A model generated the notes under the pieces. The model had not been told where the DNA came from and did not search any database. It worked only from the letters and a program-made list of their open reading frames with translations. From positions 372,001 to 436,000 of the forward strand of contig NZ_JACHEH010000002.1 in the NCBI RefSeq assembly GCF_014201415.1: 64,000 nucleotides of DNA. The letters run 5' to 3'. Positions 17,544 to 32,826 of this stretch are shown in pieces. The DNA comes from Chelatococcus composti. GTDB taxonomy: Bacteria > Pseudomonadota > Alphaproteobacteria > Rhizobiales > Beijerinckiaceae. The position numbers and the translations under genes are program-made. Each line of letters begins with the position of its first letter. The first letter of the stretch is position 1.

Positions 17544-17590
17544 TTGACAGCGCCGATCATCCAGTTGCAGATTATTTGTATACCAACAAA
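17544..17590 (+). promoter_or_regulatory. promoter and palindromic operator of the catabolic operon
   Basis: A perfect TTGACA (17544-17549) lies upstream of the near-palindrome TTATTTGTATACCAACAA (17572-17589) centred on GTATAC. On the reverse strand this reads TTGTTGGTATACAAATAA, which matches 16 of 18 positions of a second site at 31528-31545. The palindrome would cover or directly follow the -10 region (best -10 candidate GATTAT at 17570), as expected for a repressor. The MarR protein encoded at the end of this operon is the obvious candidate. The FAD subunit gene starts 59 nt further on. Confidence 0.65.
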
Positions 17591-17648
17591 AAACTGCTCG
17601 GCATCATCAATGCCGTCAGAGGGTGAACAACAGTTTCGGGAGGCGTCG

Positions 17649-18500
17649 ATGTACCTCCGTCCGCGTTCCCTCGACGAAGCGCTCGACGCGCTCGCGACAA
17701 CGGGCGCGCAGATCCTGGCTGGCGGCACCGATGTCTTCCCGGCCCTCGGCGACCGGCCACAGACCCGGCCCTTCCTCGACATCACGGCACTGCCCGAGCT
17801 GCGCGGCATCGGCCTGGAGCCGGACCACGTGCGTATCGGCGCCACCACCACGTGGACCGAGATTGCGCGTGCGGACCTGCCGAGCGGCTTCGACGCCCTG
17901 AGGGCCGCCGCCCGTGAAGTCGGCTCCCTGCAGATCCAGAACCGCGGCACCATCGCCGGCAATCTCTGCAATGCATCGCCGGCCGCCGACGGCGTGCCGC
18001 CGCTGCTTGCGCTCGAGGCGGAGGTCGAGCTCACCTCGCGCACCGGCCGGCGCCGCCTGCCCCTTCGCGAATTCATCTCCGGCTACCGCCGCACGGAGCG
18101 GCGCGAGGACGAGATCGTCACGGCCGTTTTCGTACCGCGCGCCATGACGGACGCCCGCTCCGCCTTCCTCAAGCTCGGCGCGCGACGCTATCTCGTCATC
18201 TCCATCGTCATGGTGGCGGCCATGCTGCGCACGGACGAGGCCGGCCGCATCGACGCCGCGCGCGTCGCCGTGGGCTCCTGCTCGGCCGTCGCCCAGCGCC
18301 TGCCGGCACTCGAGGCGGCGCTCGTCGGCCGGCCGGCCGCCCCAGGCATCGGCTCGGCCGTCACGGCCGCGCATCTCGCCCCCCTGTCACCCATCGACGA
18401 CGTGCGCGCCACCGGTGCCTACCGCGCAGACGCGGCGCAGACGCTCGTCGCACGCGCCCTCGAAGCCTGTGTGCACGAGCGAGCGAAGGAGGCCGCCTGA
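17649..18500 (+). CDS. molybdenum hydroxylase FAD subunit (xanthine dehydrogenase family, subunit M)
   Basis: This 283-residue FAD subunit passes electrons from the molybdenum and 2Fe-2S centres to the acceptor. FAD-contact motifs are AQILAGGTDVFPAL near residue 25 and QNRGTIAGNLCNASPAAD near 98-115. ATG 17649 has a strong GGGAGG Shine-Dalgarno; the frame is open to 17517, but that extension has no family similarity. Its stop codon is one nucleotide from the next start (TGACATG). It is the first gene of the operon and corresponds to the NdhF-type subunit of nicotinate dehydrogenase by context. Confidence 0.92.
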   Translation: MYLRPRSLDEALDALATTGAQILAGGTDVFPALGDRPQTRPFLDITALPELRGIGLEPDHVRIGATTTWTEIARADLPSGFDALRAAAREVGSLQIQNRGTIAGNLCNASPAADGVPPLLALEAEVELTSRTGRRRLPLREFISGYRRTERREDEIVTAVFVPRAMTDARSAFLKLGARRYLVISIVMVAAMLRTDEAGRIDAARVAVGSCSAVAQRLPALEAALVGRPAAPGIGSAVTAAHLAPLSPIDDVRATGAYRADAAQTLVARALEACVHERAKEAA

Positions 18501-18501
18501 C

Positions 18502-21279
18502 ATGCTCGACCGGGTTGCCACAACCGAGAGCCGCGCCGGCGTCGCCCTCACCGTCAACGGCCGGACCGTGGAGGTCCCCGCCTCGCCCGCGGCGCGCCTG
18601 TCCAAGGTGCTGCGCGACGATCTCGGCCTCACGGGCACCAAGGTCGGCTGCGACGCCGGCGACTGCGGCGCCTGCTCCGTCCTCGTCGACGGCGAGGCCG
18701 TCTGCTCCTGCCTCGTCGCCGCCGGTCAGGTCGAGGGCCGTCAGATCACGACAGTCGAGGGCCTGCCGGCCGGCCACCCCGTCGCCGCGCGCCTGCAGGA
18801 AGCCTTTCTGCGGCATGGCGCAGCCCAGTGCGGCATCTGTACGCCTGGCATGCTCGTGGCCGCCGTCGCGCTGCTCAGCCGCAACGAGCGGCCGAGCGAG
18901 ACCGAAGTGCTCGACGCCATCGGCGGCGTGCTCTGCCGCTGCACCGGCTACCGCAAGATCATCGCCGCCATTCTCGACGTGGCGAACGAGGCACAGCCGG
19001 AGGTGCTGCCAGAAGGCGGTGGGGCCATCGGCGCGCGCATCCGCCGCCTCGACGGGCTGAAGAAGGTGCGCGGCGCCGACATCTTCGGGGCCGACGAAGC
19101 ACCGGCCGATGCCCTCGTCCTCAAGGCCGTACGCAGCCCCTATCACCGGGCCGCCTTCACCTTTGGCGACATCGACGCCTTCCTCGCGCGTCACCCCGGC
19201 ATCGTGCGCGTCATCACGGCCAAGGACGTGCCGGGCGAGAACTGCTACGGCGTCATCCCGCCCTTCGCCGACCAGCCGGTCTTCGCCGAGAAGGAGACGC
19301 GCTTCCGCGGTGAGGCGGTGGCCGCCATCGTCGGCGAGGCCGCGGCCATGGCGGCGCTCGACCTGTCCGATTTCCCGGTCTCATGGCAGGAGCTGCCGGC
19401 CAACACGACCATCGATGCGGCCCTGGCAGACGGCGCGCCGCTGGTGCACGCGAACCGCCCCGGCAACATTCTCGTCGGCGGGCGCGTCGTCCGTGGCGAT
19501 GTCGATGCGGCGCTTGCGACGGCGGATGTGGTTGTCGAAGGGGAATTCGAGACCGGCTTCGTCGAGCACGCCTATATCGAGCCGGAAGCGGGCTTCGCCC
19601 GGCGCGTCGGCGACCGCATCGAGGTGCAGGCCTGCACCCAGGCGCCCTACATGGACCGCGACGACGTCGCCAGGGTACTCGGGATCGCGCCGGAGGCCGT
19701 GCGCATCATCCCGACCGCTGTCGGCGGCGGCTTCGGCTCCAAGCTCGACCTGTCCGTCCAGCCCTTCATCGCCATCGCCGCCTGGCTCCTCGACCGGCCG
19801 GTGCGCATGACCTACACGCGCCCCGAGTCGATCATGACGACCACCAAGCGCCACCCGGCGCGCATCCGGGCACGGGCGGGCGCGACACGCGACGGCAGGC
19901 TCGTCGGCTTTGACTTTTTCGGCGACTTCAACACCGGCGCGTATTCCTCTTGGGGTCCGACGGTGGCCAACCGCGTGCCGGTGCACGCCTCCGGCCCCTA
20001 CTACGTGCCCCACTACCGTGCCCTGACGCGGGCCGTACACACGCACCTCGTGCCCGCCGGTGCCTTCCGCGGCTTCGGCGTGCCGCAGGCAAGCATCGCC
20101 CAGGAGCAGCTCTACGACGAACTCGCCGACAGGATCGGCATGGACCGGCTGGAATTCCGCCTGCGCAACGCGCTGCGCGCGGACCAGCCGACCGTCACCG
20201 GCCAGGTGCTGGGCGAGGGCGTCGGCATCCGCGCCTGTTTCGAGGCCCTCGTGCCGCACTGGCAGCGGGCTCGCGCCGAAGCCGCCGCCTTCAACGCCGG
20301 GAGCCAGGGCCATCTGCGCCGCGGCGTCGGCGTGGCAGGCATGTGGTACGGCTGCGGCAATACCTCCCTGCCCAACCCGTCCACCATCCGCGTGGGGCTG
20401 AAGCGCGATGGGCGCATCGCCCTCCACCAGGGGGCGGTCGACATCGGCCAGGGCTCGAACACCGTCATCACGCAGATCTGCGCCGATGCGCTCGGCGCGC
20501 CGATTGCCCGCTTCGATCTTGTCTCGGCCGACACGGACCTGACACCCGACGCCGGCAAGACTTCCGCCTCGCGCCAGACCTTCGTCACCGGCAAGGCCGC
20601 CGAGCTGGCGGGCCGCGAGCTGCGCGCCGCCATCTTGCGCCTCGCCAATGCCGGCGAGGGAGCGACGGTTACGTTCGCGGACGGGGCGGTCGTCGTGCGC
20701 GACGGCGGGCACGAGCGCACCATCGCCCTCGCCGACCTGCCCACCGACGAGCACGGCTACGTGCTGACCGGCGAAGCTACCTTCGACCCGCCGACGAGCC
20801 CCCTCGATGCCGACGGCCAGGGCATTCCCTACGCCGTCTACGGCTTCGGCGCCCACATGGCGGAGGTCGTGGTCGATACCGAGCTCGGCACGGTGAAGGT
20901 CCTGAAGATCACCGCTGCGCACGACGTCGGCCGCGCCATCAACCCCACACTGGTCGAGGGCCAGATCGAGGGCGGCGCGGCACAGGGCCTCGGCCTCGCT
21001 CTGATGGAAGAGTTCTTCCCCGGCAAGGGCGAGAACCTGCACGACTATCTCATCCCCTCGGCGGGAGACATGCCGCCGGTCGAGTCAATCCTCGTCGAGG
21101 ATGCCTCGCCCGTCGGCCCCTTCGGCGCCAAGGGCATCGGCGAGCAGGCGCTGATCCCGACTGCCCCGGCTATCCTCAACGCCATCCATGACGCCACCGG
21201 TGTGCGCATCCGCCGCGTGCCGGCGACGCCCGACCGGGTCCGCGCCGCCCTTCTCGCCGCCACAAGCGCACGAGGCTGA
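18502..21279 (+). CDS. molybdenum hydroxylase, fused 2Fe-2S and molybdopterin subunit (nicotinate dehydrogenase-like)
   Basis: The 925-residue protein combines what are usually two subunits. Residues 1-165 hold both 2Fe-2S clusters: C50, C55, C58 and C70 (plant type), then C110, C113, C145 and C147 (helical type). From about 180 the xanthine dehydrogenase molybdopterin-binding domains follow, with TAVGGGFGSK, GAFRGFGVPQ and the active-site glutamate at E881 in KGIGEQ. Enzymes of this family add a water-derived hydroxyl next to a ring nitrogen. Together with the downstream ring reductase and enamidase this suggests C6 hydroxylation of nicotinate or a similar N-heteroaromatic; specificity is not provable from motifs. 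It starts at the GTC-free junction TGACATG after the FAD subunit, implying translational coupling. Confidence 0.92.
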   Translation: MLDRVATTESRAGVALTVNGRTVEVPASPAARLSKVLRDDLGLTGTKVGCDAGDCGACSVLVDGEAVCSCLVAAGQVEGRQITTVEGLPAGHPVAARLQEAFLRHGAAQCGICTPGMLVAAVALLSRNERPSETEVLDAIGGVLCRCTGYRKIIAAILDVANEAQPEVLPEGGGAIGARIRRLDGLKKVRGADIFGADEAPADALVLKAVRSPYHRAAFTFGDIDAFLARHPGIVRVITAKDVPGENCYGVIPPFADQPVFAEKETRFRGEAVAAIVGEAAAMAALDLSDFPVSWQELPANTTIDAALADGAPLVHANRPGNILVGGRVVRGDVDAALATADVVVEGEFETGFVEHAYIEPEAGFARRVGDRIEVQACTQAPYMDRDDVARVLGIAPEAVRIIPTAVGGGFGSKLDLSVQPFIAIAAWLLDRPVRMTYTRPESIMTTTKRHPARIRARAGATRDGRLVGFDFFGDFNTGAYSSWGPTVANRVPVHASGPYYVPHYRALTRAVHTHLVPAGAFRGFGVPQASIAQEQLYDELADRIGMDRLEFRLRNALRADQPTVTGQVLGEGVGIRACFEALVPHWQRARAEAAAFNAGSQGHLRRGVGVAGMWYGCGNTSLPNPSTIRVGLKRDGRIALHQGAVDIGQGSNTVITQICADALGAPIARFDLVSADTDLTPDAGKTSASRQTFVTGKAAELAGRELRAAILRLANAGEGATVTFADGAVVVRDGGHERTIALADLPTDEHGYVLTGEATFDPPTSPLDADGQGIPYAVYGFGAHMAEVVVDTELGTVKVLKITAAHDVGRAINPTLVEGQIEGGAAQGLGLALMEEFFPGKGENLHDYLIPSAGDMPPVESILVEDASPVGPFGAKGIGEQALIPTAPAILNAIHDATGVRIRRVPATPDRVRAALLAATSARG

Positions 21280-21280
21280 C

Positions 21281-22774
21281 ATGCAGAACGAACAGGCGGT
21301 CGCGCCCGGCGCGGCCAAGGACGACAAGATCCGCTGCGATGCCTGCCCGGTCATGTGTTACATCAAGCCGGGCATGACGGGCGCCTGCGACCGCTACGCC
21401 AACCACGACGGGGAGCTCGTCCGCGTTGACCCGCACGTGCTCCTCGAACGCACGCTCGCCCAGGGCGGCAACGTCGTTCCCTTCAACAAGGGCGAGTGGG
21501 ACGGCACCATCGTCCAGGGCTCCGAAACCTTCGTCACCGCCGTCGGCGCCGGCACCACCTATCCCGACTACAAGCCCGCTCCCTTCATCGTCTCGTCGCA
21601 GGTCGACGGGGTGGACATGGTGACCGTCGTCACCGAAGGCATCTTCAGCTACTGCGGCGTCAAGGTGAAGATCGACACCGACCGCCACCTCGGCCCGGAG
21701 CAGGCGACGGTGCGCGTGCAGGGCGAGGCCGTCGGCCACGTCACCACGGGCGAATACGGCTCCCAGATGCTCTCGCTTGGCGGCGTGCATCACCTCACGG
21801 GCGGCTCCAAGAAGGAAGGCCGCGTGACCTGCGACACGCTCTTGGCCCTGTGCAACGGCAAGGCCGTGGAGATGACCATCGACGACGGGGCCACGGTCGT
21901 CGTCCAGGCCGGCAAGCCGCCGATCGTCAACGGCGTCACCGAGGAGCGCATGCGCGTCGGCTGCGGCTCGGCCACCATCGGCATGTTCGCCAAGCAGTGG
22001 CATGGCAAGGTGGATGAGGTGGTGGTCGTCGACGACCACATCACCGGAGTCCTCTCCGAGCACCAGGCCGGCAAGCTGCTGGGCGTGCGCGAAACAGGCA
22101 TCAAGATGAAGGGCCGGCGCTCGACGCCGGGCCGCTACTTCCAGGTGGCGGAGCCGGGCACCGGCTGGGGCGGCACCAATATCTCCGATCCGCTGTCGAT
22201 CCTCGGGCCCTTCGACCCTAGGGTGGCGTGGCCGGGCCTGCGGCTGCTCATGGTCTCCACCACTGGCGAGCATCACGCCTATTACGAGCTCGACGAAACG
22301 CTGACGCCCGTCGAGCGCCAGCTGCCCGAGGCGCTGCGCCAGTCGGTGGATCGCATCAAGGAGAACTGCGAGCCTGCCCTGTGCACCGTGCTCTTTATGG
22401 GTGGGGCCGGTGGCTCCCTGCGCGCCGGCGTCACCGAGAACCCGGTGCGCCTCACCCGCTCCGTGAAGGACGCTCTCACCTATGTCACCTGCGGCGGCGC
22501 GCCGGTCTACGTCTGGCCCGGCGGGGGCATCACCTTCATGGTGGACGTGACGCGCGTGCCGGAAAACGCCTTCGGCTATGTGCCGACGCCGGCGCTCGTC
22601 GCGCCCATCGAGTTCACCATGCGGCTGAGCGACTACGAGGCGCTCGGCGGCCATATGAGCGAGGTCCGGCCAGTCTCGTCGCTGACGCCGGGCGAGGCGC
22701 GCCGCCAGCTGCCGCACCGCCTCGACAACCCCTGGCCGCTGTCGCCGCACGAGGCGCGGAGGTCGCACGGATGA
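21281..22774 (+). CDS. 6-hydroxynicotinate reductase homologue (iron-sulfur flavoprotein)
   Basis: The 497-residue protein has an N-terminal cysteine cluster (C19, C22, C26, C36; CDACPVMC then GAC) and eleven cysteines in all. I recognise the family as 6-hydroxynicotinate reductase (Hnr). In Eubacterium barkeri that enzyme reduces 6-hydroxynicotinate to 1,4,5,6-tetrahydro-6-oxonicotinate with ferredoxin-level electrons and contains iron-sulfur clusters and a covalently bound flavin (recalled literature). A DDGAT sequence (residues 201-205) resembles part of flavinylation motifs, but this is weak. The start is 1 nt after the molybdenum subunit stop; the stop overlaps the next gene start (ATGA). 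The proposed role is dearomatisation of the hydroxylated ring. Confidence 0.8.
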   Translation: MQNEQAVAPGAAKDDKIRCDACPVMCYIKPGMTGACDRYANHDGELVRVDPHVLLERTLAQGGNVVPFNKGEWDGTIVQGSETFVTAVGAGTTYPDYKPAPFIVSSQVDGVDMVTVVTEGIFSYCGVKVKIDTDRHLGPEQATVRVQGEAVGHVTTGEYGSQMLSLGGVHHLTGGSKKEGRVTCDTLLALCNGKAVEMTIDDGATVVVQAGKPPIVNGVTEERMRVGCGSATIGMFAKQWHGKVDEVVVVDDHITGVLSEHQAGKLLGVRETGIKMKGRRSTPGRYFQVAEPGTGWGGTNISDPLSILGPFDPRVAWPGLRLLMVSTTGEHHAYYELDETLTPVERQLPEALRQSVDRIKENCEPALCTVLFMGGAGGSLRAGVTENPVRLTRSVKDALTYVTCGGAPVYVWPGGGITFMVDVTRVPENAFGYVPTPALVAPIEFTMRLSDYEALGGHMSEVRPVSSLTPGEARRQLPHRLDNPWPLSPHEARRSHG

Positions 22775-23691
22775 GGGACGCGCCCTTCGCCCGCATGCTG
22801 CCCGACGGGCGCCGGCTGCACCTGCAGCACGGCCCGATCGACCTCGTCATTGAGGCCTGGGGCGCGACGGGCGAGGTGGCGCGCGCCTACGAGGCGGCGG
22901 CACGGCGCTTCGCGACACTGCTCGACGAGCTGTGTGCCGAGCTGCCGGCCCTCCGGCGCCAGGCACGCCCCGGCGAGCCGCCGCTCGCCGGCACCGTCGC
23001 GCGACGTATGCAGGAGGCGGTCCTGCCCTATGCGCACGACGCCTTCATCACGCCCATGGCGGCCGTCGCCGGCGCCGATGCGGACGAGATCCTCGCCGCC
23101 ATGCTGGCCGCAGCGCGGCTCGACAAGGCCTATGTCAACAACGGCGGCGACATCGCCCTGCACCTTGCGCCGGGCAGCACCTTTGCCATCGGCATGGTGG
23201 ACCGGCCGGACGCGCCCTGCCTGTTCGGCACGCTGCGCCTCTCCGCCGGCCAGGGAGTCGGGGGCATCGCGACGAGCGGACGCCACGGGCGCAGCTTCTC
23301 CCTCGGCATCGCCGATGCCGTCACGGTGCTGGCACGCGACGCCGCGGTGGCGGACGCGGCCGCGACGATGATCGCCAATGCCGTGGACCTGCCCGGCCAT
23401 CCCGCCGTGACGCGCGTGCCCGCCTCGGCGCTGGCGCCGGACAGCGACCTTGGCGACCGCCTCGTCACGCGCGCCGTGCGCCGCCTCGAGCCCGTGGACG
23501 TGGCGGCGGCGCTCGATGCCGGCTGCGCTTTCGCCCAGACGCTTCTCCACCGCGGGCTGATCATCGCCGCGGCATTGCATTTGCAAGGTCACACGCGAAC
23601 GGTAGGCTCGCTGCCGGGCGCACCCATCGCCGCAGCGCCCGTGCCGCTGCTGGCCGACACTCTTGGGGAGACGGGTCCGATCCATGCCTGA
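22771..23691 (+). CDS. UPF0280 family protein (ApbE-like)
   Basis: 306 residues of the UPF0280 family, related in fold to ApbE FMN transferases. Visible conserved parts are YVNNGGDIALHL (residues about 127-138), GGIATSGRHGRSFSLG and ADAVTVLARDAAVADAAATM, the last two resembling ApbE nucleotide-binding and metal-site blocks. No function has been proven for the family. It overlaps the 6-hydroxynicotinate reductase gene by 4 nt and the next gene by 8 nt. Because that reductase carries covalent flavin in its characterised homologue, a role as its flavin transferase is attractive but unproven. Confidence 0.85.
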   Translation: MRDAPFARMLPDGRRLHLQHGPIDLVIEAWGATGEVARAYEAAARRFATLLDELCAELPALRRQARPGEPPLAGTVARRMQEAVLPYAHDAFITPMAAVAGADADEILAAMLAAARLDKAYVNNGGDIALHLAPGSTFAIGMVDRPDAPCLFGTLRLSAGQGVGGIATSGRHGRSFSLGIADAVTVLARDAAVADAAATMIANAVDLPGHPAVTRVPASALAPDSDLGDRLVTRAVRRLEPVDVAAALDAGCAFAQTLLHRGLIIAAALHLQGHTRTVGSLPGAPIAAAPVPLLADTLGETGPIHA

Positions 23692-24268
23692 AGTCCAAGT
23701 CCGCAAGCGCCTCATCACGGTGGAGGAAATCTTTCACGAGGGCGGCCAGCCGGCTGAGAAACCGCTCAAGCGCGGCGCCATCGTCGCCGTGATCGCCAAC
23801 CCCTTCGCCGGCCGCTACGTGGAGGACATTGCCGGCTTCATGGATGACCTGAAGCCCCTCGGCCTCGCCATGGCGCGGGACCTGATCGCGGCGCTTGGCG
23901 GCGATCCGGCGGCCATCGAGGGTTACGGCAAGGGCGCCATTGTCGGCTCGGCGGGCGAGCTGGAGCACGGCGCGCTGTGGCATGTGCCCGGCGGCTATGC
24001 CATGCGCGAGGCCCTGGGCGGCGCCAAGGCCATCGTGCCCTCGACCAAGAAGGTCGGCGGGCCGGGCGCGCGCCTCGACGTGCCCGTCACCCACATCAAC
24101 GCCTCCTACGTGCGCAGCCATTTCGACGCCATGGAGGTTGGCATCCCCGATTCCCCGCGCGCCGACGAGATGGCGGTCATCCTCGTCATGACGACGGGGC
24201 CGCGCATCCATGCCCGCGTCGGTGGGCTGAAGGCGAGCGAGATCAAGGGAGAGGACGGCCTGAGATGA
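23684..24268 (+). CDS. amino acid synthesis family protein (PF06684), paralogue 1
   Basis: 194 residues. Core motifs are NPFAGRYVEDIAGFM, EGYGKGAIVG, GELEHGALWHVPGGYAMR, VPSTKKVGGPGA and SYVRSHFDAMEV. The family is named from early annotation; its reaction is not established. The ATG at 23684 lies inside the end of the UPF0280 gene (ATGCCTGA), and the stop overlaps the start of the paralogue by 4 nt. Both copies end in EIKGEDGLR, which points to tandem duplication. Position in the operon suggests a step after ring reduction or opening (inference). Confidence 0.88.
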   Translation: MPEVQVRKRLITVEEIFHEGGQPAEKPLKRGAIVAVIANPFAGRYVEDIAGFMDDLKPLGLAMARDLIAALGGDPAAIEGYGKGAIVGSAGELEHGALWHVPGGYAMREALGGAKAIVPSTKKVGGPGARLDVPVTHINASYVRSHFDAMEVGIPDSPRADEMAVILVMTTGPRIHARVGGLKASEIKGEDGLR

Positions 24269-24849
24269 AGGCGAAGATCCGCAAGATCGCGACATTCGTC
24301 GAGGAAACCCACACCGAGATGGGCCGGCCGGTAAGCCCGCCGACCCGCAAGGCCGCGGCCGTCGCCGTGATCGAGAACCCTTTTGCCGGGCGCTATGTCG
24401 AGGACCTCACCGAGCTGATGGAGATCGGCGAGGAGCTCGGCGGTCTCCTGGCGGAGAAGGCCGTCGCGGCGCTGGGCATCGAGGGGCCGGCGGCCGAGAG
24501 CTACGGCAAGGCAGCCCTCGTCGGCGAGAACGGGGAGCTGGAGCATGCCGCCGCCATCCTGCACCCGCGCATGGGCACGGCCGTGCGCAAGGTGCTGGGC
24601 AAGGGCGCGGCGCTCATCCCCTCCTCCAAGAAGCGCGGCGGGCCCGGCGCGGTGCTGGACATCCCGCTCGGCCACAAGGACGCGGCCTATGTGCGCAGCC
24701 ACTTCGACGGCATGGAGGTAAGCCTCAACGACGCGCCCCGGGCGGGCGAGATCATGGTGGCGGTCGCCGTCACCGATTCCGGCCGGCCGCTGCCGCGCGT
24801 CGGCGGGCTGACAAAACACGAAATCAAGGGTGAGGACGGTTTGCGCTGA
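24265..24849 (+). CDS. amino acid synthesis family protein (PF06684), paralogue 2
   Basis: 194 residues, the same length as the preceding gene and clearly its paralogue: NPFAGRYVEDLTELM, ESYGKAALVGENGELEHAAA, IPSSKKRGGPGAVLD and AYVRSHFDGMEVSLNDAPRAG. The differing central residues (for example HPRMGTAVRKV versus HVPGGYAMREA) suggest specialised subunits of a hetero-oligomer rather than redundancy. It starts within the stop of paralogue 1 (ATGA). Biochemical function unknown. Confidence 0.88.
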   Translation: MKAKIRKIATFVEETHTEMGRPVSPPTRKAAAVAVIENPFAGRYVEDLTELMEIGEELGGLLAEKAVAALGIEGPAAESYGKAALVGENGELEHAAAILHPRMGTAVRKVLGKGAALIPSSKKRGGPGAVLDIPLGHKDAAYVRSHFDGMEVSLNDAPRAGEIMVAVAVTDSGRPLPRVGGLTKHEIKGEDGLR

Positions 24850-24897
24850 CAGTCCAGACCAGAGGGGACCGGTGCGAACAATAACGGGAGAGAGAGC

Positions 24898-26103
24898 ATG
24901 CGGACGAGCTTGCGAAAATCGGTAGCCTTTGCAGCCCTGGCCCTTGTCACGGCCGGCAGCGTTGCCCGGGCCGAGGGCGAGATCAAGATCGGCGAGATCA
25001 ACAGCTATTCGGCCCTGCCGGCCTTCACCGAGCCCTACCGCAAGGGCTGGCAGCTCGCCATCGACGAGATCAACGCCGCCGGCGGCGTCAACGGCAAGAA
25101 GCTCGTCGTCATCTCCAAGGACGACGCCGGCAAGCCGGCCGAGGCCGTGACGGCCGCCAATGAACTCGTCTCGCGCGAGGGCGTGGCGCTCATCGCCGGC
25201 ACCTTCTTCTCCCACATCGGCCTCGCCGTGGCCGACTTCGCCAAGCAGAAGCAGGTGTTCTTCATGGCGGCAGAGCCGCTGACAGACGCCATGGTCTGGT
25301 CCAAGGGCAACGAGTACACCTTCCGCCTGCGGCCGTCGAACTACATGCAGGCGGCGATGCTGGCCGAGGAGGCAGCCAAGCTGCCGGCCAAGCGCTGGGC
25401 GACCGTGGCGCCCAACTACGAATACGGCCAGTCGGCCGTGGCCGTGTTCAAGGAGCTTCTCTCCAAGGCACGGCCCGATGTCGAATGGGTTGAGGAGCAG
25501 TGGCCCCCGCAGGGCAAGATCGACGCCGGCGCGGTGACCCAGGCATTGCTCGCGGCCAAGCCCGACGCCATCCTCAACGTCACCTTCGGCGCCGACCTCG
25601 TGAAATTCGTGCGCGAGGGCAACACCCGCGGCCTTTTCAAGGACCGCGCCGTCGTCAGCTTCCTCACCGGCGAGCCGGAGTATCTCGATCCGCTCAAGGA
25701 CGAAACGCCCAAGGGCTGGATCGTCACCGGCTATCCCTGGTACGATATCAAGACGCCGGAGCATGACGCCTTCCTCAAGGCCTACCAGGCGAAGTTCAAC
25801 GACTATCCGCGCCTCGGCTCCATCGTCGGCTACGGCACGATGAAGGCAATCGCGGCCATCCTCGCCAAGGCCGGCTCGACTGACACCGACAAGCTCATCG
25901 CCGCCGCGAAAGGCGTGGAGGTCGACACGCCCTTCGGCAAGATCGTCTTCCGTGCGACGGACCACCAGTCGACGCTCGGCGCCTTCGTCGGCAAGACCGA
26001 CGTGCGCGACGGCAAGGGCGTAATGGTCGATTCCGTCTATCGCGACGGCGCCGACTACCTGCCGTCCGAGGAGGAAGTGAAACACCTGCGGCCCCAGGGC
26101 TGA
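24898..26103 (+). CDS. branched-chain-type ABC transporter substrate-binding protein
   Basis: This 401-residue periplasmic receptor of the Liv/Leu-Ile-Val-binding fold has a signal peptide (residues 1-25, cleavage after SVARA). Mature sequence begins EGEIKIGEINSYSALPAF and contains GVNGKKLVVISKDDAG, typical of the family. The ATG has a GGGAGAGAG Shine-Dalgarno. These receptors often bind aromatic or carboxylate compounds rather than amino acids; with its neighbours it probably brings in the N-heterocyclic substrate. A strong hairpin follows the gene, which would favour receptor over permease expression. Confidence 0.92.
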   Translation: MRTSLRKSVAFAALALVTAGSVARAEGEIKIGEINSYSALPAFTEPYRKGWQLAIDEINAAGGVNGKKLVVISKDDAGKPAEAVTAANELVSREGVALIAGTFFSHIGLAVADFAKQKQVFFMAAEPLTDAMVWSKGNEYTFRLRPSNYMQAAMLAEEAAKLPAKRWATVAPNYEYGQSAVAVFKELLSKARPDVEWVEEQWPPQGKIDAGAVTQALLAAKPDAILNVTFGADLVKFVREGNTRGLFKDRAVVSFLTGEPEYLDPLKDETPKGWIVTGYPWYDIKTPEHDAFLKAYQAKFNDYPRLGSIVGYGTMKAIAAILAKAGSTDTDKLIAAAKGVEVDTPFGKIVFRATDHQSTLGAFVGKTDVRDGKGVMVDSVYRDGADYLPSEEEVKHLRPQG

Positions 26104-26150
26104 GGCGGGGACGCGGAGGCAGCGCCGCAAGGCGCAGCCTTCTTAATCCG

Positions 26151-26176
26151 CGAGGCCGGGCGCGGCCCGAGCCTCG
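26151..26176 (+). terminator. intra-operon hairpin after the substrate-binding protein gene
   Basis: CGAGGC-CGGG-cgcgg-CCCG-a-GCCTCG forms a 10-bp GC-rich stem with one bulge, followed by TTTC. It lies in the 255-nt gap between receptor and permease genes. Such elements commonly reduce read-through or protect the upstream mRNA 3' end. The rest of the gap contains further GC repeats (GTCGGG...CCCGAC at about 26220) but no gene. Confidence 0.45.
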
Positions 26177-26358
26177 TTTCCAGGGAGCCGGCCGGGGTGA
26201 CCCGACCGGCTCGGGAAGGGTCGGGGTCATGACGACCCGACGCTCCGCTGTCCGCGGGCCCTCCCGCTCCTCCCGTGGGGAGGCAACGAGCCAGCGTCGC
26301 TCATCCCGCGCACCCGGCGCAACGACGCCGGGCCTGACCGAACCAGAGGGTCGCGTCC

Positions 26359-28305
26359 GTGGAATTCTTCGTCGTCCAGTTTCTGACAGGCCTCGCCAGC
26401 GCGGCTTCCCTGTTTCTCGTCGCGTCCGGGCTGTCGATCATCTTCGGCGTCACGCGCATCGTGAACTTCGCCCATGGCGCCTTCTACATGCTCGGCGCCT
26501 ACGTGGCCTACACGCTCACCGAGCGGTTCGAGGGCTTCTTCGGCTTCTGGGGCGGCATCCTTCTCGCCGCGCTCGTGGTCGCGGCCATCGGTGCGCTGCT
26601 GGAGATCGTGCTGCTGCGCCGCATCTATCGCGCGCCGGAGCTGTTCCAGCTCCTCGCCACCTTCGGCGTGACGCTGATGGTGCAGGATCTCGTGGTGATG
26701 ATCTGGGGCCCGGAGGATCTCGTCGGCCCGCGCGCTCCCGGCCTGCGGGGTGCCGTTGACATCCTCGGCCTCGCCGTCCCGACCTACGACCTCTTTCTCA
26801 TCGTCCTCGGCCCGCTGGTGCTCGGCGCCCTCTGGATTCTCTTCCACCGCACGCGCTGGGGTGTGCTCGTGCGCGCCGCGACCCAGGACCGCGACATGGT
26901 GGCGGCGCTCGGCGTCAACCAGACGTGGCTGTTCACCTCGGTCTTCGCGCTCGGTATCTTTCTCGCCGGCCTCGGCGGCGCGCTGCAGATTCCGCGCAAC
27001 GCCGTGACCCACCTGATGGACCTGTCCATCATCGTCGAGGTCTTCGTTGTCGTCGTCATCGGCGGCCTCGGCAGCGTGCTCGGCGCCTTTATCGCCGCCG
27101 TGCTGGTCTCCGAGCTCAATGCCTTCGGCATCCTGGTCTTCCCCAAGATCTCGATTGTTCTCGTCTTCCTCGTCATGGCCTGCGTGCTGATCGTGCGGCC
27201 ATGGGGCCTGCTCGGGCGTCCGGAAGGGCCCGCGCGCCAGCCGGCCGGGCTCAGCATCCGTCCCTGGCACCCGATGAGTCCCAACCAGCGCCTGCTCATG
27301 CTCGCGCTCGTCGTCGTCGCGGGCTTCGTCCCCCTCGTCGCCGGCAACTACGTGCTGACGGTGCTGGCGGAGATCGCTGTCTTCGCCCTGTTCGCGGCGA
27401 GCCTGCACTTCCTCATGACGGTGGGCGGCCTCGCCTCCTTCGGCCATGCGGCCTACTTCGGCCTCGGGGCCTATGGTGCGGCCTTCGCCACCACCATGTT
27501 CGGCGCGCCGATGGTTGCCTCACTCCTGCTCGGGCCGCTGCTGGGGGTGGCCGGCGCCATCCTCTTCGGCTGGTTCTGCGTGCGGCTGTCCGGCGTCTAT
27601 TTCGCCATGCTGACGCTCGCCTTCGCGCAGATCGCCTGGTCCATCGCCTTCCAGTGGGTGGAGGTGACCGGCGGCGACAACGGCATCCTCGGCGTGTGGC
27701 CGGCGAGCTGGGCCTCGAGCCCCGCCGCCTTCTACTGGCTGGCACTCGCCGTCTCCGTCGCCGGCATCGCCGCGCTCAGGGTTCTCGTCTTCTCGCCCTT
27801 CGGCTATGCGCTCCGGGCGACACGCGACTCGGCCCTGCGTTCGGAGGCGATCGGCATTGACCGCGCCCGCGTGCAGTGGGCCGCATTCATCATCGCCGGC
27901 ACCTTCGCGGGCATCGCCGGGGCGCTCTTTGCCTTCCTGAAAGGCAGCGTCTTCCCGGACAACCTCGCCATTCCGATGTCGGTCGACGGCCTCGTCATGG
28001 TGCTGCTCGGCGGCATCGAGACAGTGTCGGGCGCCGTCGTCGGTGCGGTCGTCTACAAGGCGCTCGCCATCTGGCTTGTCAGCCAGACGGACCTGTCGAA
28101 GCTCGTGCTCGGCGCCGTCATCGTCCTGCTCGTCGTCGCCTTCCCCAAGGGCATCGTCGGCTTCGCCGAAGACCTCATGGCCCGTCGCCGCGCCAGGACC
28201 GACGACGGCGGCGCGGCGCTGGCCGCGCCGGCCAAGGCCGCCCCAGCGGCGCCCGGCAGCGGCGCCGCGCCCATCGCAGCTCCCAAGATGGAGGCCGCAC
28301 GATGA
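26359..28305 (+). CDS. fused LivH-LivM-type ABC transporter permease
   Basis: 648 residues joining both permeases of a branched-chain-type importer. Residues 1-290 are LivH-like (NFAHGAFYMLGAYVAY, VVIGGLGSVLGAF, WGLLGRPEG). Residues about 310-620 are LivM-like (GGLASFGHAAYFGLGAYGAA, GIDRARVQWAAFIIAGTFAG, LLGGIETVSGAVVGA). An Ala/Pro-rich tail follows (about 615-645). The start is GTG 26359 with GAGGG upstream. Fusion is a known but less common arrangement. Its stop overlaps the livG start (ATGA). Confidence 0.92.
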   Translation: MEFFVVQFLTGLASAASLFLVASGLSIIFGVTRIVNFAHGAFYMLGAYVAYTLTERFEGFFGFWGGILLAALVVAAIGALLEIVLLRRIYRAPELFQLLATFGVTLMVQDLVVMIWGPEDLVGPRAPGLRGAVDILGLAVPTYDLFLIVLGPLVLGALWILFHRTRWGVLVRAATQDRDMVAALGVNQTWLFTSVFALGIFLAGLGGALQIPRNAVTHLMDLSIIVEVFVVVVIGGLGSVLGAFIAAVLVSELNAFGILVFPKISIVLVFLVMACVLIVRPWGLLGRPEGPARQPAGLSIRPWHPMSPNQRLLMLALVVVAGFVPLVAGNYVLTVLAEIAVFALFAASLHFLMTVGGLASFGHAAYFGLGAYGAAFATTMFGAPMVASLLLGPLLGVAGAILFGWFCVRLSGVYFAMLTLAFAQIAWSIAFQWVEVTGGDNGILGVWPASWASSPAAFYWLALAVSVAGIAALRVLVFSPFGYALRATRDSALRSEAIGIDRARVQWAAFIIAGTFAGIAGALFAFLKGSVFPDNLAIPMSVDGLVMVLLGGIETVSGAVVGAVVYKALAIWLVSQTDLSKLVLGAVIVLLVVAFPKGIVGFAEDLMARRRARTDDGGAALAAPAKAAPAAPGSGAAPIAAPKMEAAR

Positions 28306-29072
28306 GCGAGCCCATCCTCGAGGTCGAGAACCTGTCGAAGTCCTACGGCGGCGTGCACGCAGTCAGAGGCGTGTCCTTCTCGCTGAGGGCTGGCGAGATC
28401 CTTGCCCTCATCGGCCCCAACGGCGCGGGCAAGAGCACCTGCTTCAACATGCTGAACGGCCAGATCAGCCGCGACAGCGGTTCGGTCCGCATCCTCGGCC
28501 GGGACACGGCCGGCATGCGCCCGCGCGAGATCTGGCGCCTCGGTGTCGGCCGCACCTTCCAGATCACCGCCACTTATCCCTCCATGACCGTGCGCGAGAA
28601 CGTGCAGGTGGCGATCCTCTCCCACCACCGCGAGCTCGGCCGCCTCTTCGGCTTCGCCGGCGCGCGCCACCGCACCGAGGCGGACCGGCTGCTCGGCCTC
28701 GTCGGCATGCAGGAGCTTGCGGCGCGGCCGTGCGGCGAGCTCGCCTACGGCGACCTGAAGCGCCTCGAGCTCGCCATCGCTCTCGTCAACGAGCCGAGGC
28801 TCCTCCTGATGGACGAGCCCACCGCCGGCATGGCGCCCAAGGAGCGCGTCGACCTGATGCGCCTTACCGCAAGCATCGCGCGGGAGCAGTCCATCGGCGT
28901 GCTGTTCACCGAGCACGACATGGACGTCGTCTTCGAACACGCGGACCGGATCATGGTGCTGAACCGGGGCCAGCTCATCGCCAGCGGTACGCCAGGCGAG
29001 GTGCGCAACAACCCGGACGTCAAGGCCGTCTACCTCGGCGAAGGCAGCGTCTACGGCGGAGAGGCGGCATGA
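28302..29072 (+). CDS. ABC transporter ATP-binding protein, LivG type
   Basis: 256-residue ATPase energising the Liv-type importer. Walker A is GPNGAGKS (about residues 36-43), the signature region is the LivG variant ELAYGDLKRLELAIAL, Walker B is LLLMDEPTAGM, and the switch histidine lies in FTEHDMD. The C-terminus VKAVYLGEGSVYGG fits LivG. Overlaps of 4 nt at both ends indicate tight coupling with the permease and LivF genes. Confidence 0.94.
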   Translation: MSEPILEVENLSKSYGGVHAVRGVSFSLRAGEILALIGPNGAGKSTCFNMLNGQISRDSGSVRILGRDTAGMRPREIWRLGVGRTFQITATYPSMTVRENVQVAILSHHRELGRLFGFAGARHRTEADRLLGLVGMQELAARPCGELAYGDLKRLELAIALVNEPRLLLMDEPTAGMAPKERVDLMRLTASIAREQSIGVLFTEHDMDVVFEHADRIMVLNRGQLIASGTPGEVRNNPDVKAVYLGEGSVYGGEAA

Positions 29073-29773
29073 AACTCGAAATCCACAAGCTCAACAGCTA
29101 TTACGGGCCGGCCCACATCCTCTTCGACGTCGACATCAGCGTCGGCACCGGCGAGGTCGTCGCCCTGCTCGGCCGCAACGGTGCCGGCAAGTCCACCACC
29201 TTCCGCTCCATCGTCGGGCTCGTGGCGCGGCGCGAGGGCCGCATCGTCTTCGACGGCGAGGACATCACCAACCGCCCGACGCACGAGATCGTGCGCCGCG
29301 GCCTCGGCTACGTGCCGGAGGACCGGCGCATCTTCACGGAGCTGACGGTGGAGGAGAACCTGATGGTCGGCGCGCAGCCCGCGCGGGACGGCGCCCCGTG
29401 CTGGACGCCCGAGAAGCTCTATACGCTCTTTCCCAACCTCGGCGAGATGCGCGGGCGCCTCGGCGGGCGCATGAGTGGCGGCGAGCAGCAGATGCTCACC
29501 ATCGCGCGTACGCTGATGGGCAATCCCTCCCTTGTCCTGCTCGACGAGCCCTCGGAGGGCCTCGCCCCCAAGATCGTCGAGGAGATGGCGAACGCCATCC
29601 TCGCCATGAAGAACGAGGGGCTCAGCATCGTTCTTTCGGAGCAGAACCTGCATTTCGCGCGGCTGATCTCGGACAGGGCCTATATCATCGAAAGCGGACG
29701 TATCCGCTTCGGCGGCACAATTCGCGAGCTCGAGGAGAGCCCAGAGATTCGTGACGCTTATCTCGCAGTGTGA
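29069..29773 (+). CDS. ABC transporter ATP-binding protein, LivF type
   Basis: 234-residue partner ATPase. Walker A is GRNGAGKST, LivF-type GYVPEDRRIFTELTVEENL is present, the signature is MSGGEQQML, Walker B is LVLLDEPSEGLAPK, and the H-loop position shows LSEQN. It completes the importer: one receptor, one fused permease and two ATPases. The stop lies 36 nt before the MarR gene. Confidence 0.94.
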   Translation: MKLEIHKLNSYYGPAHILFDVDISVGTGEVVALLGRNGAGKSTTFRSIVGLVARREGRIVFDGEDITNRPTHEIVRRGLGYVPEDRRIFTELTVEENLMVGAQPARDGAPCWTPEKLYTLFPNLGEMRGRLGGRMSGGEQQMLTIARTLMGNPSLVLLDEPSEGLAPKIVEEMANAILAMKNEGLSIVLSEQNLHFARLISDRAYIIESGRIRFGGTIRELEESPEIRDAYLAV

Positions 29774-29809
29774 TAGGCCGCGGCAACGACCGCCCCAACC
29801 GGAGTTTCG

Positions 29810-30241
29810 ATGACTTCAGCCGCCTCGACACCCGCCTATGTGCTCGACGAGCAGATCGGCTTCATCCTGCGCCAGGTCAGCCAGCGCCACACGACCATCT
29901 TCATGACGCTGATGGGCGAGGATTTGACGCCGACACAGTGGGCCGCCCTCGCCAAGCTCCACCAGCTGGGACCGCTGTCCCAGAACCTGCTCGGCCGGCA
30001 TACGGCCATGGACGCCGCCACCATCAAGGGTGTCGTCGACCGGCTGACGAAACGCGGGCTGACCGCGACGAGCCCCGATCCCGACGACGGCCGCCGCCTG
30101 CTCGTGGCACTGACGCCAGAGGGTGAGGCGATGGTCGAGCGTTGCCTGCCGCGGGCCATCGCCATCACCGAGGAGACGCTGAAGGAGCTGAGCGCCGCGG
30201 AACGCGCGACGCTCACCGCCCTGTTGCAGAAGATGCTCTGA
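29810..30241 (+). CDS. MarR family transcriptional regulator of the catabolic operon
   Basis: 143 residues with the MarR winged helix: LTPTQWAALAKLHQLGPLSQNLLG, recognition helix DAATIKGVVDRLTKRGL and wing DPDDGRRLLVALTPEG. The ATG at 29810 has CGGAG upstream. It is the last gene of the operon and converges on the enamidase gene with only 4 nt between stops. It is the natural candidate for binding the TTGTT-R-GTATAC palindromes at 17572 and 31528, with an aromatic acid as ligand. In Pseudomonas putida the aerobic nicotinate genes are also under a MarR protein (NicR), which fits but does not prove the role. Confidence 0.92.
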   Translation: MTSAASTPAYVLDEQIGFILRQVSQRHTTIFMTLMGEDLTPTQWAALAKLHQLGPLSQNLLGRHTAMDAATIKGVVDRLTKRGLTATSPDPDDGRRLLVALTPEGEAMVERCLPRAIAITEETLKELSAAERATLTALLQKML

Positions 30242-30245
30242 GCCC

Positions 30246-31442
30246 TCAGTGGGCCACGATCTCCGGCACCCGCGTGGCCGGGGGCGTGTTCCGGCTGCGC
30301 TGGGTGCGCACGACACCGTCGATAATGGTCATGCCGATGCCCGGAAGGTCGCCGAGGCGGACGGAATCGAGCAGGTCCTTGCCGGCAGAATGCTGGGCCT
30401 TGTCCATCAGCACGAAATCGGCCGCCCGACCCGCCTCGATGAGACCGCAGTCGAGCTGGCGCATGCGCGCCGTGTTGCCCGTCGCGAAGCAGAAGGCAAC
30501 TTCCGCCGGCACGTCGCCAAGCGAGGACAGGAGCGAGATCATGCGCAGGATGCCCAGCGGCTGCACGCCCGACCCTGCCGGCGCATCCGTGCCGAGGATG
30601 ACGCGGTTGAGCTCGCCCATCTCCCGGGCGATGCGCAGGGTGTAGAGGGCTGCCCGCTCGTTGCCGTTGTGCACCAGCTCGAGACCCCGCTTGCAGCCCT
30701 CGCAGATGCAGCGGATCTGGTCGTCCGGCAGGGCCGTGTGGCCGCCGTTGATGTGGCCGACGACATCCGTGTCCGCCTCGAGCACCACATCCTTGTCGAT
30801 GAGGCCTGAGCCGGGAATGGACGGCCCGCCGGTATGGATGGTCGACTGGATGCCGTACTTGCGCGCCCAGGCCACCATCTTGCGCGCCGTCGGCCCGTCC
30901 TTGACGCCACCGAGGCCGACCTCGCCGAGCAGCTTCACGCCGGCATCGGCCAGATCCTTGAAATCCTGCTCCGTCATGTCCGGCTCGATGCAGGGAGCAC
31001 CGGCATGGATCTTCACGCCGCTCGGGCGGAAGGCGGAAAAGGTACGCTGGGCGTAGATTGCCATAGCCTTGAGGCCGACGACGTCGCGCGGCCGGCCGGG
31101 CGTATGCACCTCGCCCGCCGAGATCATGGTGGTGACGCCGCCGTGCAGGTTGCTCTCGATCCAGTTGAGCTGCTGCTGGCGCGGCGTCCAGTCGCCGGCG
31201 ACGGGGTGGACGTGGCTGTCGATGAGGCCGGGCGTCAGCACCGTGCCGTTGGCGTCGATCACCTGGCTCGCGCCCTCGGTATCGACATCCTTCTCATACC
31301 CGACGGCAGCAATCCGCCCGTCGACCGCGACCACCGTGTCGCCATCGAGGATCGGCCGCTCGAGATCGCCGCTCAGGATCAGGCCGATGTTGCGGATGAC
31401 GAGCTTGCCCTTTCCACCCTGCTGTACCGCGTCGTGCGCCAT
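30246..31442 (-). CDS. enamidase homologue (amidohydrolase superfamily)
   Basis: This 398-residue metal-dependent amidohydrolase resembles, from memory of its sequence, enamidase (Ena) of Eubacterium barkeri, which hydrolyses tetrahydro-6-oxonicotinate to 2-formylglutarate and ammonia. Shared-looking segments are HGGVTTMISAGEVHTPGRP, HTGGPSIPGSG, GHINGG, TDAPAGSG and the C-terminal SRNTPPA. Metal-binding DSHVHP is intact. ATG 31442 follows GAGAGGGA; the frame is open to 31541 but that extension covers the operator. It is transcribed toward the operon from the same promoter region as fdxA. Confidence 0.82.
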   Translation of the reverse strand: MAHDAVQQGGKGKLVIRNIGLILSGDLERPILDGDTVVAVDGRIAAVGYEKDVDTEGASQVIDANGTVLTPGLIDSHVHPVAGDWTPRQQQLNWIESNLHGGVTTMISAGEVHTPGRPRDVVGLKAMAIYAQRTFSAFRPSGVKIHAGAPCIEPDMTEQDFKDLADAGVKLLGEVGLGGVKDGPTARKMVAWARKYGIQSTIHTGGPSIPGSGLIDKDVVLEADTDVVGHINGGHTALPDDQIRCICEGCKRGLELVHNGNERAALYTLRIAREMGELNRVILGTDAPAGSGVQPLGILRMISLLSSLGDVPAEVAFCFATGNTARMRQLDCGLIEAGRAADFVLMDKAQHSAGKDLLDSVRLGDLPGIGMTIIDGVVRTQRSRNTPPATRVPEIVAH

Positions 31443-31500
31443 GGTTCCCTCTCTCTCCGTGTGCCTCGGCCGACCCCTCACGGCCTGTGCCGCGACCCGA

Positions 31501-31545
31501 TTGACAAGCCGGATCAGCCGCATTAATTTGTTAGTATACAAACAA
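31501..31545. promoter_or_regulatory. divergent promoter region with palindromic operator (enamidase / fdxA)
   Basis: The palindrome TTGTTAGTATACAAACAA (31528-31545) has matching half-sites except one base and is 16/18 identical to the site at 17572 read on the other strand. On the plus strand a perfect TTGACA (31501-31506) with a possible -10 TAATTT (31524-31529, 17-nt spacing) points toward fdxA, 34 nt downstream of the operator. On the minus strand the enamidase start lies 85 nt away. The TTGACA-to-palindrome distance (27 nt) nearly equals that at the operon promoter (28 nt). Confidence 0.62.
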
Positions 31546-31579
31546 TTATGAGGCGAGCAAGAGCCCTCCGGAGGTTCGC

Positions 31580-31909
31580 ATGCCCTATGTCGTGACCGAT
31601 GGCTGCATCCGTTGCAAGTACCAGGATTGCGTCGAGGTGTGCCCGGTCGATTGCTTCTACGAAGGGGAGACGATGCTCGTCATCCATCCCGACGAATGCA
31701 TCGACTGCGGCGTGTGCGAACCGGAATGCCCGGCCGAAGCCATCGTCCCCGATACGGACCCGCGTGCCGAGCGGTGGGCACCGATCAATGCCAAGTATGC
31801 CGCGATCTGGCCCAATATCACCGATAAGGGCCCGGTGCCGGACGACGCCGACGCCTGGAAGGGCGTTCCCGACAAGGAGAAATTCCTGTTTAGTGCGGAG
31901 GAAATGTAA
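31580..31909 (+). CDS. fdxA: 7Fe ferredoxin FdxA
   Basis: A 109-residue ferredoxin with one 3Fe-4S and one 4Fe-4S cluster: N-terminal [18 protein letters not shown] and second cluster [12 protein letters not shown]. The C-terminal extension (about residues 60-109, ending [11 protein letters not shown]) is typical of the alphaproteobacterial FdxA family. ATG 31580 has CCGGAGG upstream. FdxA is widespread and usually not tied to one pathway. Here its promoter region shares the operator of the N-heterocycle operon, which raises the possibility that it donates electrons to the 6-hydroxynicotinate-reductase homologue. Confidence 0.95.
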
Positions 31910-32052
31910 AATCTTGCAATTCCGCGAGCGATTGCGCAAATAGAGGCTGTGACCCCTTTTCCCTCGTGCGGCGCCCCGTTATGGAAGGCGCGGCCCTTAA
32001 CCCCGCGGCACCGACCGCAACGAAGATCCCCCGGGAGCATGGACGAGAAGCC

Positions 32053-32826
32053 ATGAGCAACTTCAACCAAGAGCGCGTCCTCAGCGTGCATCACTGGACG
32101 GACACGCTGTTCTCCTTCACGACGACGCGCGATCCCGGCTTCCGCTTCAAGAACGGCCAGTTCACGATGATCGGCATCGAAGTGGACGGGAAGCCGCTCC
32201 TCAGGGCCTACAGTGTCGTCAGCCCGAACTACGACGAGAAGCTGGAGTTCTTCTCCATCAAGGTGCCAGACGGGCCGCTGACCTCGCGCCTCCAGCACCT
32301 CAAGGAGGGCGATCCCATCATCGTTGGCCGCAAGGCCACCGGCACCCTGGTGCTGGACAACCTGATGCACGGCCGCAACCTCTACCTGCTCGGCACCGGC
32401 ACCGGCCTTGCCCCCTTCCTCAGCCTCATCCGCGACCCGGAGACCTACGAGCGCTTCGAGAAGGTCATTCTCCTGCACGGCTGCCGCCAGGTGGCGGAGC
32501 TGGCCTATGGCGAGCTCATCACGCGCGACCTGCCGCAGGACGAGTACCTCGGCGAGGAGGTCCGCCAGAAGCTCATCTACTATCCGACCGTGACGCGCGA
32601 GCCCTTCCGCAACCGCGGCCGCATCACCGACCTCATCACGACCAAAAAGCTCTTCAACGACATCGGCCTGCCGCCGCTCGACACCGAGAACGACCGGCTC
32701 ATGCTCTGCGGCAGCCCGCAGATGATCCGCGACCTCAAGAACATCCTTGAGGAGCGCGGCTTCATCGAGGGCAACCACGGCGAGCCGGGCCATTTCGTCA
32801 TCGAGAAGGCCTTCGTCGAGCGCTGA
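32053..32826 (+). CDS. fpr: ferredoxin-NADP+ reductase
   Basis: 257-residue FAD enzyme moving electrons between NADPH and ferredoxin. The FAD motif is LRAYSVVSPNYDE, the NADP-binding loop GTGTGLAPFLSLIRDPE, and the C-terminus EKAFVER is like that of alphaproteobacterial Fpr. ATG 32053 is chosen because the family starts SNFNQERVLSVHHW; the frame opens earlier at 31966. It follows fdxA by 143 nt on the same strand. A terminator-like hairpin follows the gene. With FdxA it forms a plausible NADPH-to-ferredoxin chain. Confidence 0.95.
   Translation: MSNFNQERVLSVHHWTDTLFSFTTTRDPGFRFKNGQFTMIGIEVDGKPLLRAYSVVSPNYDEKLEFFSIKVPDGPLTSRLQHLKEGDPIIVGRKATGTLVLDNLMHGRNLYLLGTGTGLAPFLSLIRDPETYERFEKVILLHGCRQVAELAYGELITRDLPQDEYLGEEVRQKLIYYPTVTREPFRNRGRITDLITTKKLFNDIGLPPLDTENDRLMLCGSPQMIRDLKNILEERGFIEGNHGEPGHFVIEKAFVER

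Follow-up and report, generated by a model that had tools for sequence, protein, structure and literature searches.

A putative aerobic reductive nicotinate catabolic regulon in Chelatococcus composti

How might an organism that we take, from its genus, to be aerobic break down an N-heteroaromatic acid such as nicotinate by reducing its ring? The question is raised by a locus of Chelatococcus composti situated in the 64,000-nucleotide stretch of DNA analyzed here (the window; G000:C2:372001-436000), which is part of a genome of 3.7 Mb in 24 contigs. One operon combines genes for a molybdenum (Mo) hydroxylase, a homologue of 6-hydroxynicotinate reductase (Hnr), a UPF0280 protein, two PF06684 paralogues, a Liv-type importer and a MarR-family regulator; a gene for an enamidase (Ena) homologue converges on it, and fdxA and fpr follow. 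An earlier note on this DNA had described this arrangement, and we find all the named genes open and in that order, with coordinates and strands bearing out the convergent enamidase gene. We consider it quite probable that these genes form a regulon for reductive nicotinate catabolism in an aerobe; the scheme extends from import of the acid to the electron transfer flavoprotein (ETF)-ubiquinone oxidoreductase (ETF-QO).

The locus and its molybdenum hydroxylase

The operon opens with the FAD subunit of an Ndh-type Mo hydroxylase (17649-18500, on the forward strand like all genes below unless stated; FAD_binding_5, PF00941, 1.4e-45, and CO_deh_flav_C, PF03450, 1.2e-14), followed by a 925-residue chain (18502-21279) with Fer2, Fer2_2 and Mo-binding domains, equivalent to a fusion of NdhS, NdhL and NdhM. 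By Pfam, and by comparison of the Mo regions with chains A and B of PDB 3hrd, the FAD, two [2Fe-2S] and Mo domains of such a hydroxylase are all present. The sole solved relative of the first Mo region below 1e-60 is the large subunit of Eubacterium barkeri nicotinate dehydrogenase (3hrd_A, 3.6e-74), and the second region recovers 3hrd_B (9.3e-70) well before 4-hydroxybenzoyl-CoA reductase (1.3e-42). A GEQAL motif in the window protein aligns with GEPAL of 3hrd_B, and its glutamate is presumably catalytic. An identity as xanthine dehydrogenase or aldehyde oxidoreductase was dropped, since the listed NCBIfam equivalog scores all fell under their cut-offs and nicotinate dehydrogenase is the best match region by region.

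The hydroxylase is followed by the Hnr homologue (21281-22774; 497 residues), and beyond the operon the enamidase homologue is encoded on the reverse strand (30246-31442). The latter matches PDB 2vun (2.9e-111 over 383 residues), and the HxH, Glu, His, His and Asp residues of the metal site, which we take to be the metal ligands, are all present in the alignment. Given that the closest solved relatives of the hydroxylase (region by region) and the ring opener are enzymes of the E. barkeri pathway, the earlier interpretation of the locus as reductive and nicotinate-type appears largely right. The E. barkeri system (ndhFSLM, hnr, ena) has the same hydroxylase type and an enamidase; however, its subunits S, L and M are separate, whereas they form one chain in the window, where genes for ABC import, MarR, fdxA-fpr, UPF0280 and PF06684 stand alongside, unlike in the E. 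barkeri cluster as we take it to be composed. The nic pathway of Pseudomonas putida, of which 6-hydroxynicotinate is the first product, also uses a Mo hydroxylase but cleaves the ring oxidatively; no ring-cleaving dioxygenase was found among the annotated genes of the locus, nic genes not having been searched for genome-wide.

The earlier note overrated the novelty of the locus, as the same cluster type was published in 2012. That paper (PMC3511419) places it in A. caulinodans ORS571, B. japonicum USDA110, R. palustris HaA2 and strain SG-6C, and lists an Hnr homologue, genes for the first three steps, an ABC transporter and two conserved unknown proteins. According to the same paper, SG-6C grows on nicotinate, 6-hydroxynicotinate and 6-chloronicotinate, and its homologue is 42% identical to E. 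barkeri Hnr, the value through which the E. barkeri reductase is linked to that of the window. PMC9304392 gives the tetrahydro-oxonicotinate route as common to E. barkeri and Azorhizobium, and neither 'hydroxynicotinate reductase' nor 'Azorhizobium' stands in the available text of a nicotinate dehydrogenase review (PMC10331938). The literature searched, with most subscription journals outside it, yielded no description of an Ndh-type hydroxylase in such an aerobic cluster in the text accessible, and no paper naming UPF0280. Thus, the cluster type is in print and the hydroxylase variant was not found described, while UPF0280, the electron supply and the regulon are strong new leads. Homarine breakdown was considered as a pathway relative and dropped, no paper having been found.

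Hnr homologues occur in all four genomes examined from the genus and in 74 of the 297 genomes of the order, with the window genome counted in both. The nearest named loci are those of C. sambhunathii and C. caeni (94% Hnr identity to the window in each case), and Afipia homologues show 81-82% identity. A named genome collection holds Hnr homologues in at least 595 stretches, the best 80 of which (loci L061-L140, leaning for that reason to close relatives) include metagenome-assembled genomes of Acidobacteriota; homologues also lie on 26 plasmid records (H1-H26), 12 of them Sulfitobacter, with one record predicted to be conjugative. Conservation of the neighborhood, a check proposed in the earlier note, is borne out in that parts of it recur among the 110 loci examined around Hnr homologues, which together with the count in the order indicates that the neighborhood is not due to chance.

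Gene contents of these loci were determined by tblastn with set thresholds. By this measure, 50 of the 110 have a NicB-like cytochrome-c hydroxylase, 42 the Ndh-type of the window, 18 neither and none both (two duplicate pairs, L034/L062 and L041/L123, count twice here and in the operator counts below). The NicB-type enzyme of many Bradyrhizobium and Afipia loci is a protein of about 1187 residues with Mo and Cytochrom_C domains (representative L107). The Azorhizobium hydroxylase is cytochrome-c-linked, and the nicotinate route of that genus was reportedly described by Kitts in 1992. The Bradyrhizobium and Afipia loci, through which, rather than through the named strains' own loci, our link to the published aerobic cluster runs, have Hnr, UPF0280, PF06684, Liv and MarR genes and in many cases also Ena and Fpr, as does the window; they differ in that the NicB-type loci use the cytochrome-c-bearing hydroxylase and the window the FAD-containing fused one.

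On a quick Hnr tree of 109 rows (two rows were dropped), the two hydroxylase labels need at least five changes, with rows labeled 'other' left out. Past the two Chelatococcus rows, the three closest to the window comprise a NicB-type row and two labeled 'other', and the window binding protein is 78-79% identical to those of the NicB-type loci L036 and L037. It appears that one hydroxylase was swapped for another with the remainder of the cluster kept in place, which would argue for a single substrate. A third hydroxylase type, consisting of a NicA-like FeS protein and a Mo subunit of about 719 residues that has no cytochrome domains (domain check on L139), stands beside Hnr and Fpr at L043, L046 and L139; tblastn did not find UPF0280 in these three loci.

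Hnr, UPF0280 and the ring opener

Among distinct loci of at least 18 kb, UPF0280 was found in 42/42 NicB-type, 29/29 Ndh-type and 6/10 other loci, and one PF06684 query matched in 41/42, 26/29 and 6/10, respectively. The corresponding figures are 40/42, 23/29 and 7/10 for MarR, 33/42, 14/29 and 0/10 for Ena, 28/42, 7/29 and 4/10 for Fpr, and 37/42, 10/29 and 0/10 for the window binding protein. Hnr is thus constantly accompanied by UPF0280 and PF06684, but not by Ena, Fpr and the importer. Consistent with this, all 12 Hnr-positive genomes tested have a UPF0280 homologue, which in G208 sits on a different contig from Hnr, versus none of 40 Hnr-negative ones; its presence in the Ena-less genomes G132, G136, G155 and G218 indicates that it follows Hnr and not the ring opener.

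The window Hnr has no Pfam match at 0.001 (the sole match, GCV_T_C, is below its cut-off at 0.0096), and the PDB search recovered no solved relative. E. barkeri Hnr carries a covalent flavin, one [2Fe-2S] and two [4Fe-4S] clusters; eight cysteines are kept in at least 48 of 49 Hnr rows, a number that suffices for two FeS clusters but not for three. As a canonical target motif of the flavin transferase ApbE, only PGMTGAC at residue 30 came into question, and it was rejected as its threonine varies among relatives. In Kaistia dalseonensis, a methylmalonyl-CoA mutase gene (L062:7193-9352; NF006944, 1225 bits) lies one small gene upstream of Hnr.

The UPF0280 (DUF375) gene lies at 22771-23691. Scored on the longer open reading frame (ORF) 22228-23691, its product reaches 400 bits against NCBIfam NF003322 (cut-off 290), and it matches PDB 2o34 in sequence (5.4e-9). 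A Foldseek search with its structure model (pLDDT 88.4) recovered its own family first (2o34, 8.2e-12), and ranks 3 (7esb, 1.1e-5) to 40 consist only of ApbE, Ftp and FmnB flavin transferases, albeit with modest TM-scores of 0.3-0.5. With the motif of ApbE as we assume it (a His before DPxTG, and D..T as metal ligands), the NGGD, ATSG and D..T positions are shared; of the presumed ligands, Asp182 is kept in 32 and Thr185 in all of 36 UPF0280 rows. In contrast to ApbE, FmnB and Ftp, UPF0280 has no catalytic histidine and scores 22 bits against Pfam ApbE, under the cut-off of 25.6, and Hnr has no conserved canonical target motif; each of these points weakens a flavin role. UPF0280 is nevertheless probably a maturation factor for Hnr, and the simplest reading of the model would be a protein that attaches or inserts the Hnr flavin. 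We hold more tentatively, at somewhat short of an even chance, a broader proposal, namely that UPF0280 constitutes a distinct, His-less class of flavin-attaching protein for Hnr, and that Hnr and UPF0280 form a portable module used with at least two hydroxylases and two ring openers (enamidase or HyuAB).

The second ring opener emerges from genomes that carry Hnr and not the enamidase. An enamidase at E 1e-30 or better is present in 31 of 46 Hnr-positive genomes, two of them with divergent versions (42-43%); the remaining 15 are all rated 96-100% complete. Some Ena-less loci have hydantoinase/oxoprolinase genes (HyuA, PF01968, 5.9e-87; HyuB, PF02538, 3.2e-164), and HyuA and/or HyuB lie near Hnr at L047, L049, L051, L053-L057 and L136. 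In a comparison of 28 loci with a genome enamidase result, on stretches of about 20 kb, Hyu genes occur in 5 of 7 Ena-less loci versus 1 of 19 with an enamidase of at least 67% identity (Fisher p = 0.0018; grouping the two loci with divergent enamidases, which both carry Hyu genes, with the other enamidase loci gives p = 0.009). Of these five loci, L047 shows only a HyuA piece at the stretch end, and L050 and L059 have neither Ena nor Hyu. This suggests that an ATP-dependent lactam hydrolase may replace the enamidase in part of the family; the window genome itself has the enamidase.

The two PF06684 paralogues (23684-24268, Pfam 8.8e-74; and 24265-24849, also matched by Pfam) have no assigned role. 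Among solved structures the second is closest to SPO0826 (PDB: 2qtp, 8.6e-93), whose gene neighborhood may for this reason resemble the window locus. Being left over, and for that reason only, PF06684 is a candidate for the unassigned downstream steps.

A shared palindrome and the electron supply

Two predicted operators lie in the locus: operator 1, TTATTTGTATACCAACAA, at 17572-17589 upstream of the hydroxylase operon, a palindrome that recurs in homologous loci, and operator 2 at 31528-31545 between ena and fdxA, where its position could serve both. The sequence TTGTATACNAACAA occurs exactly at three places in the genome, one upstream of the FAD subunit gene, another in the ena-fdxA intergenic region and the third on contig 4, with one further place at one mismatch (G000:C1:434983-434996). 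On contig 4 (L151:8231-9960, near G000:C4 position 380142) the site precedes a gene for ETF-QO (PF05187, 3.8e-48; PF21162, 3.5e-43). C. sambhunathii and C. caeni each have three such places at no more than one mismatch, before the same three units as in the window genome, ETF-QO included.

Searching the 110 loci for the palindrome gave 49 hits, spread over 35 of them, versus 1 and 1 for two scrambled palindromes, and 41 of the 49 lie within 350 bases upstream of an hnr, nicA, FAD, ena, fdxA, fpr, marR or binding-protein match (8 do not; distances are to tblastn match ends rather than start codons). With at most one mismatch allowed, 12 of the 40 Hnr-positive genomes carry it, as against none of the 40 Hnr-negative ones. 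Four of the 12 (G010, G058, G143 and G288) have the site at a distance from Hnr or on a different contig; two of the outlying sites precede an fpr homologue (L161 and L155) and those at L160 and L163 precede other genes. In G079 some 10 kb separate the site from Hnr, and next to it is a different transporter binding-protein gene. Of two further control patterns, one with a CTATAG core matched 7 times, always next to cluster genes, and we take these matches for true sites read with mismatches, and one with TGTT/AACA arms around a GTATAC core gave none; a sigma-70 promoter scan found nothing in either operator region. The product of the MarR gene (29810-30241; PF01047, 6.5e-13) would be the protein that binds the palindrome.

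The operator between ena and fdxA implies that fdxA (31580-31909; ferredoxin by domain match) and fpr (32053-32826; ferredoxin-NADP reductase, PF00175 and PF00970) belong with the system by a common site and not just by place. The genome encodes a second FdxA elsewhere, 71% identical to that of the locus, and for Fpr a search at E 0.001 gave just one match in the genome.

The predicted pathway and its alternatives

Taken together, these genes would support the following scheme. Nicotinate would enter through the Liv-type ABC system, comprising a periplasmic binding protein (24898-26103; PF13458, 1.8e-70; PDB 3i45, 6.1e-159), a permease in which LivH and LivM are fused into one chain (26359-28305; two BPD_transp_2 stretches, PF02653) and the ATPases LivG (28302-29072; PF00005 and PF12399) and LivF (29069-29773; PF00005), the last two scored on longer ORFs. 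The FAD-containing Mo hydroxylase would produce 6-hydroxynicotinate, its electrons probably passing to NAD(P)+, and NADPH would supply two electrons through Fpr and FdxA to Hnr, matured by UPF0280 most likely by flavin attachment, for reduction of the ring to tetrahydro-6-oxonicotinate; with electrons so returned, the first two steps would be roughly redox-neutral. The enamidase would then open the ring with release of ammonium, yielding 2-formylglutarate, which may be decarboxylated and oxidized to glutarate and converted to glutaryl-CoA, and glutaryl-CoA dehydrogenase would feed ETF and ETF-QO. MarR is predicted to repress the operons at the TTGTTNGTATACNAACAA palindrome, with binding of a pathway metabolite lifting the repression.

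One of 11 acyl-CoA dehydrogenase-like genes, situated on the window contig at a distance of more than 100 kb, encodes a glutaryl-CoA dehydrogenase. The best PDB match of its product is named acyl-CoA dehydrogenase (4w9u, 2.5e-230), and the next nine, from 3e-193, are named glutaryl-CoA dehydrogenase, one of them putative. With the operator at ETF-QO, this gene fits a glutarate route, in place of the methyleneglutarate route that we assume for E. barkeri. The earlier note had expected the later steps to depart from those of E. barkeri, and both the dehydrogenase and the glutarate route that PMC3511419 cites for Azorhizobium agree with it.

Several observations weigh against this scheme. The operator is missing at up to one mismatch from 28 of the 40 Hnr-positive genomes and at up to two from 75 of the 110 loci, and its site at ETF-QO is confined to the three Chelatococcus genomes. 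Much of the window set is not constant in the 29 Ndh-type loci, given the low counts there for Fpr (7), Ena (14) and the binding protein (10). Over the whole hydroxylase chain the PDB top score belongs to an aldehyde oxidoreductase (1sij, 412 bits), itself single-chain, and 3hrd, split into chains, is ahead only region by region. The Hnr model (pLDDT 69, no fold match) is too weak to interpret, and in a register set by eye the position of the presumed ApbE catalytic histidine is Gly179 in 36 of 36 UPF0280 rows. For neither the decarboxylation of 2-formylglutarate nor the oxidation of glutarate semialdehyde could an enzyme be assigned.

The locus might instead degrade another N-heteroaromatic acid, such as isonicotinate, picolinate or a substituted nicotinate, by the same logic of hydroxylation, reduction and hydrolysis. 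Substrate specificity is not readable from sequence, and the two main hydroxylase types together with the Ena-less genomes imply that Hnr has been built into differing contexts; however, the hydroxylase and ring opener are nearest to enzymes of the nicotinate pathway, and the Hnr and binding protein have close counterparts in Afipia and in L036 and L037, clusters of the published nicotinate type, which renders this reading improbable beside nicotinate. A stronger contender, to which we give about one chance in three, is that UPF0280 itself catalyzes a step of the pathway and resembles ApbE only through common descent. The glycine in place of the presumed histidine, the Pfam score below cut-off and the lack of a conserved canonical flavinylation motif in Hnr all favor such a role, but it is at odds with the retained Asp182 and Thr185 and with the co-occurrence with Hnr even in Ena-less genomes. 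Likewise, the palindrome before ETF-QO could belong to another regulator, leaving that gene outside the regulon, as the restriction of the site to Chelatococcus and the fpr homologues and other genes behind outlying sites elsewhere might indicate. Yet the same gene is preceded by the site in three species, exactly or with one mismatch in 18, and the window genome has no other exact place outside the locus; we regard a separate regulator as unlikely and retain ETF-QO in the proposed regulon.

As regards the surroundings, argH (32959-34401), just downstream of fpr, has a match by nucleotide stretch in Chelatococcus loci only and is not counted in the system. Directly upstream of the operon lies an HI0933-like flavoprotein gene (16163-17404), in a gene order common to two Chelatococcus loci only. 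The gap of 255 bases between the binding-protein and permease genes (26104-26358) is by eye rich in short G+C repeats. Further away, a 956-residue fused Mrp-antiporter-like protein with Proton_antipo_M, MbhD, MbhE and MnhB domains is encoded at 54541-57411; a tRNA scan and Rfam at gathering score found nothing in the window.

If the scheme is true, it shows an aerobe using a reductive attack on the ring that is known best from an anaerobe, and a small regulon that ties the electron supply to the ring reductase. It would also furnish a testable role for UPF0280 and a context for PF06684, known mainly from structures, and would narrow the range in which to seek the downstream steps still missing from aerobic nicotinate breakdown. 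Such clusters bear on the chloronicotinate residues of neonicotinoid insecticides, which strain SG-6C mineralizes by a cluster of this kind.

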